NCBI RefSeq assembly: GCF_001570565.1
Contig: NZ_BBXE01000025.1
Coordinates: 1-64,000 of the forward strand
Length of the DNA: 64,000 nucleotides
Direction: 5' to 3'
DNA from: Herbidospora yilanensis
Lineage (GTDB): Bacteria; Actinomycetota; Actinomycetes; Streptosporangiales; Streptosporangiaceae
This document shows positions 15,199 to 18,666 of this stretch, one piece after another (position 1 is the stretch's first letter; each line of letters begins with the position of its first letter). The notes beneath the pieces were generated by a model. It saw nothing but the letters and a program-made list of their open reading frames with translations. It made no database searches and was not told the origin of the DNA. The position numbers were made by a program, and so were the translations under genes.

Positions 15199-16728
15199 AT
15201 GGCGGACATATTCGACTCATATGCCCTGGCCGACGCATGGGACGAGATGTTCGAGCGGCCGGGCACACCCCGGCCGCCGTATCAAGGGCTGTTCGCGGCC
15301 CTGCAACCCCTCGGGGCCGACGAGCTCCGGTTCCGGGCCGACCAACTGGCCCGGGTGTTCACCGACCGGGGGGTGACGTTCGACTACGCGGGCGAGGAAC
15401 GCCCCTTCCCGCTCGATCTGATCCCCCGCGTCATCGACGCCGCCGAGTGGGACCTGATCGCCCGCGCGGTCCGGCAGCGGGTGCGCACGCTGGAGGCCTT
15501 CCTCGCCGACGTGTACGGCGGCCGCCAGATCTTCCACGACGGCGTCGTCCCGTGGTCGCTCCTCCACAGCTCCCCCCACTTCCACCGGATGGCCGACGGG
15601 ATCAGGCCGGCGAACGGGGTGCGCGTCCACATCGCGGGCATCGACATCATCCGCGACGAGATGGGCGCCTTCCGGGTGCTGGAGGACAACGTCCGAACCC
15701 CGAGCGGCGTCAGCTACGTCCTGGAGAACCGGCTGGCGATGATGCGCACGCTCCCGGCGCTGTTCACCGAGCAGCGGGTGCGCGCGGTCGACGAATATCC
15801 GGCCCGGCTCCTGGCCGCCCTGCGGCGGGCCGCGCCGACGGCGATCAACGATCCGACGGTCGTCGTGCTGACCCCCGGGGTCTACAACGCCGCCTACTTC
15901 GAGCACGCCCTGCTCGCCCGGCTGATGGGCGTCGAGCTCGTCGAGGGACGGGACCTGATCTGCGAGAACAACCGGGTCTACATGGTCACCACCCACGGCA
16001 AGCGGCCGGTCCACGTGATCTACCGGCGGGTCGACGACGACTACCTCGACCCGTTGCACTTCCGGCCCGACTCGACCCTCGGCTGCCCGGGGCTGCTGAA
16101 CGCCGCCCGCGCCGGCACGGTCGCCATCGCCAACGCGGTCGGCAACGGGGTGGCCGACGACAAGCTGCTCTACACGTACGTGCCGGACCTGATGAAGTAC
16201 TACCTCGGCGAGACGCCGCTGATCTCCAACGTGGAGACCTACCGGCTGGAGGACGCCGACACCCTCGAATGGGTGCTCGGCAACGTCGGCGACCTGGTGC
16301 TGAAACCGGTCGACGGAGCCGGCGGCAAGGGCATCGTCATCGGCCCCCGGGCGAGTGAGGAGACCCTCCGGGGGCTGGCGGAGAACGTGCAGAGGGAGCC
16401 GAGGAAGTGGATCGCCCAGCGGCCCGTCGCGCTCTCGACCTCGCCGGCCCTCATCGGCGACCTGCCCCGCCCCCGGCACATCGACCTGCGGCCGTTCGCC
16501 GTCAACGACGGCGACGACGTCTGGCTGCTGCCGGGCGGCCTGACCCGGGTCGCGCTGCCCGAGGGCGAGCTGGTCGTCAACTCCAGCCAGGGCGGAGGCT
16601 CCAAGGACACCTGGGTGTTGTCGGAGCCGGGGCCGCGCATCCCGCACGTCGTGACCGGCGGCCACCAGCCCCCGGCGCACTGGCAACCGAGCCGCAACGC
16701 CGCCTGGGACGGGGAGAACGAACAGTGA
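15199..16728 (+). CDS. Circularly permuted ATP-grasp protein (DUF404/DUF407)
   Basis: 509-aa member of COG2308, a permuted ATP-grasp fold predicted to form peptide (amide) bonds. Conserved blocks include RTLEAFLADVYGGRQI, FRVLEDNVRTPSGVSYVLENR, ENNRVYMVTTHGKRPVHVIYRR and the glycine-rich nucleotide loop KPVDGAGGKGIVIG. It is first in an operon: its TGA overlaps the GTG of the alpha-E gene (GTGA), and a transglutaminase follows. This triad recurs across bacteria and was predicted from comparative genomics to be a peptide-synthesis or protein-modification system. Substrates are unknown. Confidence 0.93.
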   Translation: MADIFDSYALADAWDEMFERPGTPRPPYQGLFAALQPLGADELRFRADQLARVFTDRGVTFDYAGEERPFPLDLIPRVIDAAEWDLIARAVRQRVRTLEAFLADVYGGRQIFHDGVVPWSLLHSSPHFHRMADGIRPANGVRVHIAGIDIIRDEMGAFRVLEDNVRTPSGVSYVLENRLAMMRTLPALFTEQRVRAVDEYPARLLAALRRAAPTAINDPTVVVLTPGVYNAAYFEHALLARLMGVELVEGRDLICENNRVYMVTTHGKRPVHVIYRRVDDDYLDPLHFRPDSTLGCPGLLNAARAGTVAIANAVGNGVADDKLLYTYVPDLMKYYLGETPLISNVETYRLEDADTLEWVLGNVGDLVLKPVDGAGGKGIVIGPRASEETLRGLAENVQREPRKWIAQRPVALSTSPALIGDLPRPRHIDLRPFAVNDGDDVWLLPGGLTRVALPEGELVVNSSQGGGSKDTWVLSEPGPRIPHVVTGGHQPPAHWQPSRNAAWDGENEQ

Positions 16729-17702
16729 GAGAGCTGCTGAGCCGCATCGCGGAGACCCTCTACTGGATCGGCCGGTACGTCGAGCGTTCCGACGACATCG
16801 CCCGCCTGCTCGACGTGTCGCTGCACCGCACCCTCGGCGACGACGAGGACTGGTCGACGGTGCTGGCCATCCTCGGCCACGAGGGCGGCGACAACCCCAC
16901 GACCGAGACGATGATCCAGCGCCTGGCCTACGACTCGGCCACGCCGAGCTCGATCGCCGGGTGCGTCCGGGCGGCCCGGGAGAACGCGCGCGGGGTGCGG
17001 GAGATCATCTCCAGCGAGGTCTGGGAGTGCCTCAACGTCACCTGGAACGAACTGCCGATCCGCCAGATCGGGGCCGAACGGCTCGGCCCGCACGGCTACC
17101 TCCGGTACGTCCGCGAGCGCGCCGCCCTGTTCTCCGGCCTCACCGATGCGACCATGAGCCGCGACGACGGCTGGTTGTTCATCGTGCTCGGCCGCAGCCT
17201 GGAGCGGGTCGACATGACCGCCCGCCTGCTGGCCGTGCACGCCGAGGTGCTGCCCAGCGAGTTCGCGCCGCCGTCGGAGTCGACCGGCTGGAAGGCGCTG
17301 CTGGAGGCGTGCGGGGCCGACGAGTCGTTCACCCGGACCCATCGGGGCGACGCGAAGCGGGTGCTGGAGTTCCTCCTGCTCGACCGGCTCTTCCCCCGCT
17401 CGGTCATGCACGCCCTCACCACCGCCGAGCAGTGCCTGGCCGAACTCAGCCCCAACCAGGGCAGGGCGGGCATGAGCGACCCGGCGCGGGCGGCCGTCGG
17501 GCGGGTCCGGATGGCGCTGGAGTACGCCGACACGGCGGGCCTCGAAGAGCAGCTCCCCGAGCTGCTGATCACCCTCCAGGCGGCGTGCGTGATCGCCTCG
17601 GAGGGGTTGACGGAACGGTTCTTCCAGCACGCCTCGACGCTGCGCTGGGAGCTGGGCGTGCAGGCGCTGGGAGGTGCGGTGTGGAAACCGGCTGGCGTGT
17701 GA
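16725..17702 (+). CDS. Alpha-E domain protein (DUF403)
   Basis: 325-aa helical alpha-E protein, COG2307 (RIAETLYWIGRYVERSDDIARLLDV, ENARGVREIISSEVWECLN, GRSLERVDMTARLL). The GTG start at 16725 overlaps the ATP-grasp stop by 4 nt, so it is translationally coupled. The family has no proven activity. It is found almost only with permuted ATP-grasp and transglutaminase-like genes and is thought to work in the same complex or pathway. Cytoplasmic, with no signal or TM segment. Confidence 0.93.
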   Translation: MRELLSRIAETLYWIGRYVERSDDIARLLDVSLHRTLGDDEDWSTVLAILGHEGGDNPTTETMIQRLAYDSATPSSIAGCVRAARENARGVREIISSEVWECLNVTWNELPIRQIGAERLGPHGYLRYVRERAALFSGLTDATMSRDDGWLFIVLGRSLERVDMTARLLAVHAEVLPSEFAPPSESTGWKALLEACGADESFTRTHRGDAKRVLEFLLLDRLFPRSVMHALTTAEQCLAELSPNQGRAGMSDPARAAVGRVRMALEYADTAGLEEQLPELLITLQAACVIASEGLTERFFQHASTLRWELGVQALGGAVWKPAGV

Positions 17703-18517
17703 GGATCCGCCACTCGACGTTCGTGGAGTACGACGGCGAGGCGGCGTCGTCGTACAACGAGGTCCGGATGACCCCGGTCGACGACCACCGGCAGGCCACG
17801 CTCGACTACAGCCTGGTCATCCGGCCCACGACGCCGGTCTGGACCTACCGCGACTACTGGGGCACCCAGGTCAGCGTCTTCGACGTGACGGGCGGCCACC
17901 GGACGCTCGCGATCGAGGCGGAGGCCCGGGTCGACACCTCTCCGGTCCGGCCGCTGGCCAAGCCGCTGAGCTGGGATCTGCTGAGGAACGTGACCGGCCC
18001 GGTCGCCGAGCTGCTGCGGCCCACCGAGCGGACCACGATCACCTGCGGCGAGGTCGGGCTGGCCCAGACGCACGGCCGCGACCCGCACGAGACCGCCGAG
18101 GCCATCGCGTGGGCCGTCCACGAACGGGTCGAATACGTGCCCGGCGCCACGGGGGTGCTCACCAGCGCCCAGGAGGCCTGGGACCACGGCAAGGGCGTCT
18201 GCCAGGACATGGCGCACCTGACCGTCGCGCTGATGCGGGCGGCCGGGTTGCCGGCCCGGTACGTCTCCGGCTACATCCATCCGGCGGCGGACGCGGTGAT
18301 CGGCGAGCCCGTCGCGGGGCAGTCGCACGCGTGGGTGGAGTACTGGTCGGGCGAGTGGAACGCGCTCGACCCGACAAATCGCTCAAAAGTAGGCGAAACA
18401 CATGTAGTGGTAGCGCGCGGGAGAGACTACGCTGACGTACCCCCTTTGAAAGGTATTTACCAAGGACCACCTGCGGGAAGACAAGAAGTAAAGGTCGAAG
18501 TGACCCGGTTGGCGTGA
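17681..18517 (+). CDS. Transglutaminase-like cysteine peptidase family protein
   Basis: 278-aa bacterial transglutaminase-like protein: N-terminal beta domain (VRIRHSTFVEYDG...), then the papain-like core with the complete triad Cys174 (GKGVCQDMAH), His216 (SHAWVEYW) and Asp230 (NALDPTN). GTG 17681 has GGGAGG six nt upstream, which implies a 22-nt overlap with the alpha-E gene; GTG 17699 (4-nt overlap, no RBS) is the alternative. Probably cleaves or transfers amide bonds on the product of the ATP-grasp partner. The last ~46 codons switch to A/T-rich codon use although the protein sequence stays typical. Confidence 0.9.
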   Translation: METGWRVRIRHSTFVEYDGEAASSYNEVRMTPVDDHRQATLDYSLVIRPTTPVWTYRDYWGTQVSVFDVTGGHRTLAIEAEARVDTSPVRPLAKPLSWDLLRNVTGPVAELLRPTERTTITCGEVGLAQTHGRDPHETAEAIAWAVHERVEYVPGATGVLTSAQEAWDHGKGVCQDMAHLTVALMRAAGLPARYVSGYIHPAADAVIGEPVAGQSHAWVEYWSGEWNALDPTNRSKVGETHVVVARGRDYADVPPLKGIYQGPPAGRQEVKVEVTRLA

Positions 18518-18570
18518 TCAATACGTATTACTGGGAAGGCTGAGACCAATACGAGAGAGGAGAGCCTCTT

Positions 18571-18666
18571 GTGAAAAGGGTCCAGATCGTCCAGCGCCCC
18601 CGTCCGCCCCGGCAGCCGCTGCCCATCGACCTGCGCACTCCGTCGGGGCGGGTCCTCCCTTTTTGA
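18571..18666 (+). CDS. Putative 31-aa Pro/Arg-rich peptide, end of ATP-grasp operon
   Basis: GTG start with AGGAG (18558-18562) 8 nt upstream, and a TGA stop at 18664-18666. The peptide begins VKRVQIVQRPRPPRQPLP and ends TPSGRVLPF. Most third positions are G or C, as in real genes here. It lies 53 nt after the transglutaminase stop on the same strand and the next gene is convergent, so it would be cotranscribed with the ATP-grasp operon. It could be a substrate peptide for that system or simply an unrelated small ORF. A 5-bp hairpin (AGAGG/CCTCT) covers the Shine-Dalgarno. Confidence 0.45.
   Translation: MKRVQIVQRPRPPRQPLPIDLRTPSGRVLPF

Follow-up and report, generated by a model that had tools for sequence, protein, structure and literature searches.

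The window considered here is the whole 64,000-nucleotide stretch of Herbidospora yilanensis DNA (contig NZ_BBXE01000025.1, positions 1 to 64,000), and the element of interest is a 31-codon open reading frame (ORF) at 18571-18666 on the plus strand, read from a GTG start as VKRVQIVQRPRPPRQPLPIDLRTPSGRVLPF and then ended by a stop codon. It lies behind three genes for an ATP-grasp, an alpha-E and a transglutaminase-like protein, with 53 bases between the transglutaminase stop and its own start, and its stop stands 13 bases from the end of a convergent glycosyltransferase gene. A Shine-Dalgarno-like GAGGAG at 18557-18562 (plus strand), supported by its sequence and by family statistics, is found 8 nt ahead of the GTG, and the GC content at codon positions 1-3 is 0.77, 0.53 and 0.83. 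These values bear out the Shine-Dalgarno sequence, the coding-like third bases and the stop close to a convergent gene that the initial annotation had pointed to. Together with the family conservation and purifying selection described below, the ORF looks like a real gene, encoding a small protein of a family recognised by its DLRTPSGR tail.

The DLRTPSGR-tail family

Of the 297 genomes in the taxonomic family, 178 gave at least one match to the single sequence at E ≤ 0.01; a genome holds as many as 5 such matches, and the best value is 2e-14. With such values elsewhere and so many genomes matching, the ORF lies far beyond chance, and the proposal of the initial annotation that it is a genuine short gene stands. 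A second copy is present in the genome of the window itself, on another contig (G000:C16:163751-163840). At the level of the phylum, profile A1 matched 25 of 396 genomes at E ≤ 0.01, and the tail is seen in 12 of them, being the own genome, G324 and ten genomes of genus g70, which judged by its peptides is presumably Streptomyces; the remaining 13 are judged to be chance matches after inspection of five. A broader profile (A3) matched 44 of 296 genomes of the class at E ≤ 0.001. Moreover, a scan of a species collection for D..RTP[ST]GR.LP[FY] followed by a stop codon gave at least 119 stretches holding 120 motif instances, and the 80 stretches whose names were examined are all from actinobacteria, including Streptomyces, Nonomuraea, Streptosporangium, Microbispora, Actinomadura, Kribbella, Streptacidiphilus, metagenome-assembled genomes of Frankiales and Catenulispora, and others. 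According to a simple script, a start codon occurs 26-40 codons ahead of the stop in 116 of the 120 instances listed, which corresponds to ORFs of 26-37 residues, nearly all of them basic from the start, a feature that the pattern does not demand.

The family is defined here as ORFs of 26-38 residues with a basic N-terminal half and the end D[LRT]R[TS]P[ST]G[RK]x[LM]P[FY], a description into which the window ORF falls. Among 164 peptides, the median length is 31 residues and the median net charge +7 (3 to 10), proline accounts for 19.5% of the residues, and Cys and Trp occur in one peptide each. The tail, [LI]D[LR]RTPSGRxLP[FY], is nearly fixed and ends directly at the stop codon, and the N-terminal half is variable, basic and Pro-rich, with RPRPPR in Streptosporangiaceae and RIRVRVSRRP, RQQLIRKPVPKPAPRD and others elsewhere. 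Weaker members found by profile deviate in the tail (RTPAGRVLPF, RTPAGRPLPW, RTPSGVHLPY), and three fetched profile-match loci (L249, L255 and L258) have no recognisable tail.

Raw sums of nonsynonymous over synonymous differences (pN/pS) in the N-terminal half are 0.06 for 142 pairs at 90-100% identity, and 0.22 (470 pairs, 75-90%) and 0.38 (564 pairs, 60-75%) in the wider identity bands, where pS is near saturation; the pairs are of equal length and non-independent, and the tail was excluded since the pattern had selected it. The invariant tail residues are encoded by many synonymous codons, and 143 of 165 unique family instances have a Shine-Dalgarno word between -17 and -5, compared with 31.8 ± 5.3 in shuffles. 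These sequence statistics show the family to have the character of coding DNA under purifying selection.

The window copy and the second copy have no Pfam or NCBIfam match at E up to 1, and two Streptomyces-type members have no NCBIfam match at E up to 0.01. A search of the PDB for solved relatives returned nothing convincing, the best match being an eS1 ribosome chain at E = 2.8. In plasmid and phage collections no tblastn match was obtained, although the low-complexity filter may drop short Pro/Arg-rich queries. Five tail strings are absent from the PMC subset of the literature searched, and the parts of the main text of PMC10654065 consulted (Streptomyces small ORFs) hold nothing relevant to the family. 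It is new to the libraries searched (Pfam and NCBIfam) and is apparently undescribed. Thus, there is a family of small proteins, often multicopy, whose near-fixed tail is followed directly by the stop codon and which is found also where the ATP-grasp operon is missing; judged by its sequences, it would be a new family within bacterial small proteins rather than a new mechanism.

Some loci carry further features. A third, weak Herbidospora member (L265, G033:C106, near position 3000) ends in DTRTPSGVHLPY and is divergent beside a putative thiazole/oxazole-modified microcin (TOMM) precursor (TIGR04351, 56.6 bits, cut-off 65). In four genomes of families f90 and f92 (L251, L253, L256 and L257), the next gene past the peptide gene is convergent and looks SsgA-like, an assignment made by Pfam (PF04686) for L251 alone, and an SSPSGRA stretch lies within these SsgA-like proteins. 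At L264, a 55-residue ORF behind a Nonomuraea-type copy, ~170-340 bases past its start, ends in ...VIDLRAYTGRNVIRFPGGPTSAA; this end loosely resembles the peptide tail, and the ORF has no Pfam match. Finally, L095 and L199 show a tandem duplicate of the tail-coding segment (GDRRTPSGRLLPYWHRSGRLPTWIPPT) just downstream of a Streptomyces-type copy.

The enzyme operon and DUF5999 as neighbours

The three genes ahead of the peptide gene form the operon that the initial annotation had described, with each domain recovered by Pfam and each junction overlapping. A circularly permuted ATP-grasp is encoded at 15199-16728 (PF14403, 507 bits; PF04174, 489 bits), an alpha-E protein at 16725-17702 (PF04168, 291 bits) and a transglutaminase-like protein at 17681-18517, with an alternative start at 17699 (PF01841, 75 bits; PF08379, 68 bits), all on the plus strand. 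The GTG at 16725 overlaps the TGA at 16726-16728, and the GTG at 17699 (or 17681) overlaps the TGA at 17700-17702, so translational coupling of the three genes is plausible. An allophanate hydrolase gene (13417-15153, TIGR02713 over cut-off) precedes the operon. On the other side, the convergent gene (18680-19846, minus strand) encodes a GT4-type glycosyltransferase (PF00534, PF13439), which by synteny is also the next gene past the peptide gene in L047, L048, L053, L056 and L058.

The initial annotation had also proposed the peptide as a substrate or product precursor of these enzymes. The ATP-grasp of the window was searched in 66 peptide-bearing genomes of 20 genera with a cut-off of E ≤ 1e-30, and in 33 of them no relative was found at this threshold. 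Another 16 have a distant relative only, at 44-47% identity and in every case within a longer open frame (838 aa or more), and 17 have a close orthologue (78-100%). The latter lies less than 2 kb from the peptide gene in 15 of the 17 (7 Herbidospora, 5 g28 and 3 g23), whereas it is 83 kb away in G177, and in G141 the position of the peptide was not among the matches listed. The linkage was seen in three of the 20 genera tested. Moreover, G104 and G144 (g23) keep the peptide and show no ATP-grasp match, and L048, L056 and L058 have no operon, the peptide gene being placed there between a CysS-like gene and the convergent glycosyltransferase gene; in the window, the same two genes flank a larger block that contains the operon. 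From these operon-free loci, the operon looks inserted beside an older peptide locus and is best seen, on present sequences, as its later neighbour. Homologues of the peptide are found widely, as the initial annotation had suggested looking for, but, among the genomes tested, beside the enzymes in those three genera only, and since the gene does not travel with the enzymes the precursor claim is not supported. A link between peptide and operon was rejected by this test; the presence of the ATP-grasp, alpha-E and transglutaminase genes looks incidental to the peptide system, and where present the enzymes may act on the peptide in trans.

A different neighbour recurs. When up to three genes on each side of the pattern-scan instances, called by a simple script, were clustered, the largest cluster was DUF5999 (PF19462), with 18 loci among the 119 listed and two representatives assigned to the family. 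A motif scan gave 18 matches, three of them beyond the cluster, which places DUF5999 as a same-strand neighbour in 21 of the 119 listed loci. Among the loci with names, those of Streptomyces have DUF5999 in front, mostly with 14-15 bases to the peptide gene, and those of Nonomuraea and Acrocarpospora have the peptide gene in front, 32-41 bases from DUF5999 where the script gave a distance. DUF5999 lies directly behind the second copy of the own genome, comes first also in L247 (f86), L248 (f87) and L262 (f3), and is divergent in G698 (f88). The pairing of one member class with DUF5999 is thus an association that spans five taxonomic families and three gene orders.

DUF5999 is present in 25 of 25 chosen peptide genomes, and in 43 of 44 peptide-positive genomes (missing in G700) compared with 74 of 252 negative ones, with a Fisher p of 5e-19 that is inflated by shared ancestry; both searches were apparently made over one draw of 296 genomes, having the same size and handles. 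Like the peptide, DUF5999 is a small actinomycete protein of unknown function, but it is longer (~62 residues), contains Cys and His and shows no detectable homology with its gene partner. The comparison of the two gave an hhalign probability of 0.2, and the peptide has no Pfam match. In five pairs the peptide carries a charge of +5 to +7 and DUF5999 of -1 to -5. Because of this acidic partner to a basic peptide, and of the pairing itself, DUF5999 would be the strongest candidate for a partner protein. Its AlphaFold model has a mean predicted local distance difference test (pLDDT) of 82 and four short strands, and the PMC subset searched returned no literature on it.

Upstream signals and the transglutaminase gene end

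The DNA ahead of the peptide gene is AT-rich for this genome from ~18374 to 18570, and this region includes the last 47 transglutaminase codons (18374-18514, plus strand), where the GC content at third codon positions (GC3) is 0.43, compared with 0.97 before. The same drop is observed throughout the Herbidospora and g28 loci, from 0.91-0.98 to 0.43-0.51. In L057 of g23, the transglutaminase stop is 133 bases from the peptide gene and the last 50 codons have a GC3 of 0.88. Considering amino-acid-invariant codons in seven Herbidospora loci, 3 of 47 vary synonymously in the tail of the gene compared with 70 of 192 over its remaining length (p = 1.7e-5). For five g28 loci the figures are 13 of 42 and 63 of 167 (p = 0.48), so the idea that nucleotides are constrained here in both genera does not hold for g28 and is retained for Herbidospora alone.

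Within the coding sequence, a ACAAGAAGT element is found at 18481-18489 (plus strand), ~50 nt ahead of the -10-like box described below, and the same word recurs at a roughly equivalent position between the genes in L057. The word ACAAGAA (ACAAGTA in L009 and L021) lies 39-56 bases ahead of TGGGAA and is absent in L025 and L026; it is inside the transglutaminase gene in Herbidospora and between genes in L057, L011 and L058. A search of 14 genomes with the DNA at 18380-18575 gave strong matches only at this locus (own genome, G149 and G079, weaker in G077), and elsewhere E of 0.2 or worse. The region gives no RNA structure signal (fold z-score 0.01), and Rfam has no match between 15000 and 20000. 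Taken together, the end of the transglutaminase gene can be read as an overlapping upstream control region of the peptide gene.

A -35-like GTGATC of SigB-family type at 18514-18519 overlaps the transglutaminase stop codon and is followed, after a spacer of 13 nt, by a -10-like GGGAAG at 18533-18538 (both plus strand). Neither GTGATC nor GGGAA varies across the 12 Herbidospora and g28 loci; the sixth base of the latter box is G or A, and the spacer differs between loci. In the sections of PMC8346170 drawn on here, the Bacillus SigB promoter is given as GTTTAA-N12-14-GGG[AT]A[AT], with GNNT as a looser -35, and the tested Streptomyces coelicolor promoters include GTGATG-N14-GGGTAG. The window signal fits G-N5-N12-14-GGGNA and departs from the GNNT form. 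Using promoter patterns that were widened after inspection of the sequences, a SigB-like pattern is found upstream of 30 of 131 non-redundant members, compared with 20 of 770 other genes of the same loci and with 4.4 ± 2.1 in shuffles. The resemblance to the S. coelicolor regulon is one of sequence, and many family members carry other upstream sequences. A sigma-70 scan found nothing.

Another signal, TGTC[AG]GT-N9-NANNNT, precedes 14 of 122 members and 1 of 874 control genes. It resembles the RecA-NDp (PafBC) DNA-damage promoter, tTGTCRgtg-N8-TannnT as written in the parts of PMC5656591 and PMC8223512 consulted, although the published TANNNT is kept in only 4 of the 122; the second copy of the own genome is among the 14 and the window copy is not. 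The TGTCRGT element is found in 9 of 10 peptide-first pairs and in 0 of 10 DUF5999-first pairs. As an association, therefore, SigB-like or RecA-NDp-like signatures are enriched upstream of the family, and less so when the patterns are kept strict. Other member classes have their own upstream words. An operator-like palindrome, GGCACGATGTGCC, lies upstream of MNRQ-type copies (e.g. L170 and L181), TGGGCACG upstream of 16 of 122 members and 1 of 912 control genes, and ATAAGCTC, common to MARQQL-type copies (e.g. L184 and L194), upstream of 9 of 122 members but of none of the 912 controls.

Possible roles of the family

The reading we favour, with about an even chance of being right, is that of a family of free-standing small proteins made under stress and acting in trans, which dock by their tail and for which DUF5999 is the best-supported candidate partner. 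The proteins would be produced under stress, the window copy being transcribed from a SigB-type promoter over the end of the transglutaminase gene and the second genomic copy from a promoter of the DNA-damage type. The fixed tail, with its free aromatic C-terminus, would dock into one conserved target, and the basic, Pro-rich N-terminal half might provide a second contact, either with an acidic partner, a nucleic acid or the ribosome. A more specific version, which we regard as possible though doubtful, would have the 31-residue basic proteins and DUF5999 form a two-protein switch and a new stress module. In this module, one universal tail, DLRTPSGRxLP[FY]-COOH, would be combined with lineage-specific N-terminal halves, several copies per genome would serve different stress programmes (SigB-type and DNA-damage-type), and the control region of one copy in Herbidospora would have come to lie across the end of an unrelated enzyme gene, whose codon choice it would have fixed.

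Several observations weigh against a stress-made family that acts with DUF5999. The uniformity of the tail in the pattern-scan set is partly built in by construction, and the AlphaFold model of the peptide lacks regular secondary structure and shows just an isolated bridge, located in the tail (pLDDT 79, predicted template modelling score 0.19). Of the listed loci, 98 of 119 are not beside DUF5999. Phylogeny confounds the co-occurrence, and a few of the 44 positive genomes were counted from partial or weak matches (L258, in G758, has no tail). In 74 genomes DUF5999 occurs with no peptide detected, so it can do without the peptide. The DUF5999 model has no Foldseek match at E ≤ 0.001. As for the promoters, the widening of the patterns after inspection counts here too; GTTTNN-N12-14-GGG[AT]A[AT], nearer to the literature, is found before 3 of 122 members and 0 of 874 control genes, the GNNT form before 11 of 122 and 24 of 874, and TGTCR-N11-TANNNT, with the published TANNNT, before 4 of 122 and 1 of 874. 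Also, the TGTCRGT element is absent from the DUF5999 genes of the DUF5999-first pairs and from the stand-alone DUF5999 genes examined.

Among the alternatives, it seems unlikely, though worth weighing, that the peptides are accessory proteins that use their basic half (RIRVR, RPRPPR) to bind rRNA, DNA or the exit tunnel during stress, with the tail fixing them or recruiting a factor. The high charge and proline content, the near lack of Cys and Trp and the stress-type promoter signatures would suit such a role, but the fixed part is the tail and not the basic half, RPRPPR is limited to part of the family, and no ribosome chain in the PDB was convincing. The RPRPPR-like stretch presumably resembles proline-rich antimicrobial peptides, from which the family differs in that this stretch is not conserved, and we know of no counterpart of the conserved tail among them. 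The pairing with DUF5999 could also be an accident of shared regulation, with the peptide acting elsewhere in a SigB-type stress network. For example, MEDS-type neighbours are found in 7 and STAS-ANTAR in 6 listed loci (by Pfam, one representative each) and Usp-like neighbours, by eye, in 6, all counts without a background rate. We consider this improbable because no other neighbour, of those clustered or read, turns up across five taxonomic families in varying gene order, as DUF5999 does.

The remaining possibilities treat the peptide as raw material or as a local regulator. A precursor of a ribosomally synthesised and post-translationally modified peptide (RiPP), or a secreted signal, would be short with a variable N-terminal half and a conserved end, as observed, and the weak Herbidospora homologue L265 lies beside the putative, below-cut-off TOMM precursor. 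Nonetheless, it is the C-terminal end that is conserved, the part in which variation of a core would be expected, and so constant a tail does not suit a precursor built around a variable core; no recurring modifying enzyme was seen beside the family (neighbours by eye and by cluster, with no dedicated RiPP search), nor, by eye, a hydrophobic secretion signal, and this makes the idea very unlikely. A cis-acting leader or ribosome-arrest peptide, for which conservation up to the stop codon and the richness in proline would speak, appears more improbable still. The downstream gene is convergent in 72 of the 114 listed instances in which the script called one, as it is in the window, so no fixed same-strand gene follows; the own second copy precedes DUF5999 and most other copies do not, RNA structure and Rfam matches are lacking at the locus, and gene contexts as varied as these disfavour a role in cis. 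Finally, the peptide contains the Gln and Lys of a possible enzyme substrate and is adjacent to the operon, on the same strand, in the 15 genomes mentioned above. With no ATP-grasp relative at the cut-off used in half of the 66 peptide genomes searched, G104 and G144 among those keeping the peptide alone, the same locus occurring operon-free and the second copy on another contig beside DUF5999, a precursor of the three enzymes is barely credible.

The favoured reading of a stress-made protein acting in trans moves the locus away from the tempting view of a peptide substrate in an ATP-grasp/transglutaminase operon. A protein of ~31 residues with a near-fixed C-terminal dozen and up to five copies per genome is a target for genetics in antibiotic-producing bacteria, its carriers being Streptomyces, Streptosporangium, Nonomuraea, Kribbella and others, and the members tested having no Pfam or NCBIfam match. 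The promoter signatures suggest conditions in which its expression could be looked for, and the pairing would offer a point of entry into the function of DUF5999, a family for which none is known.

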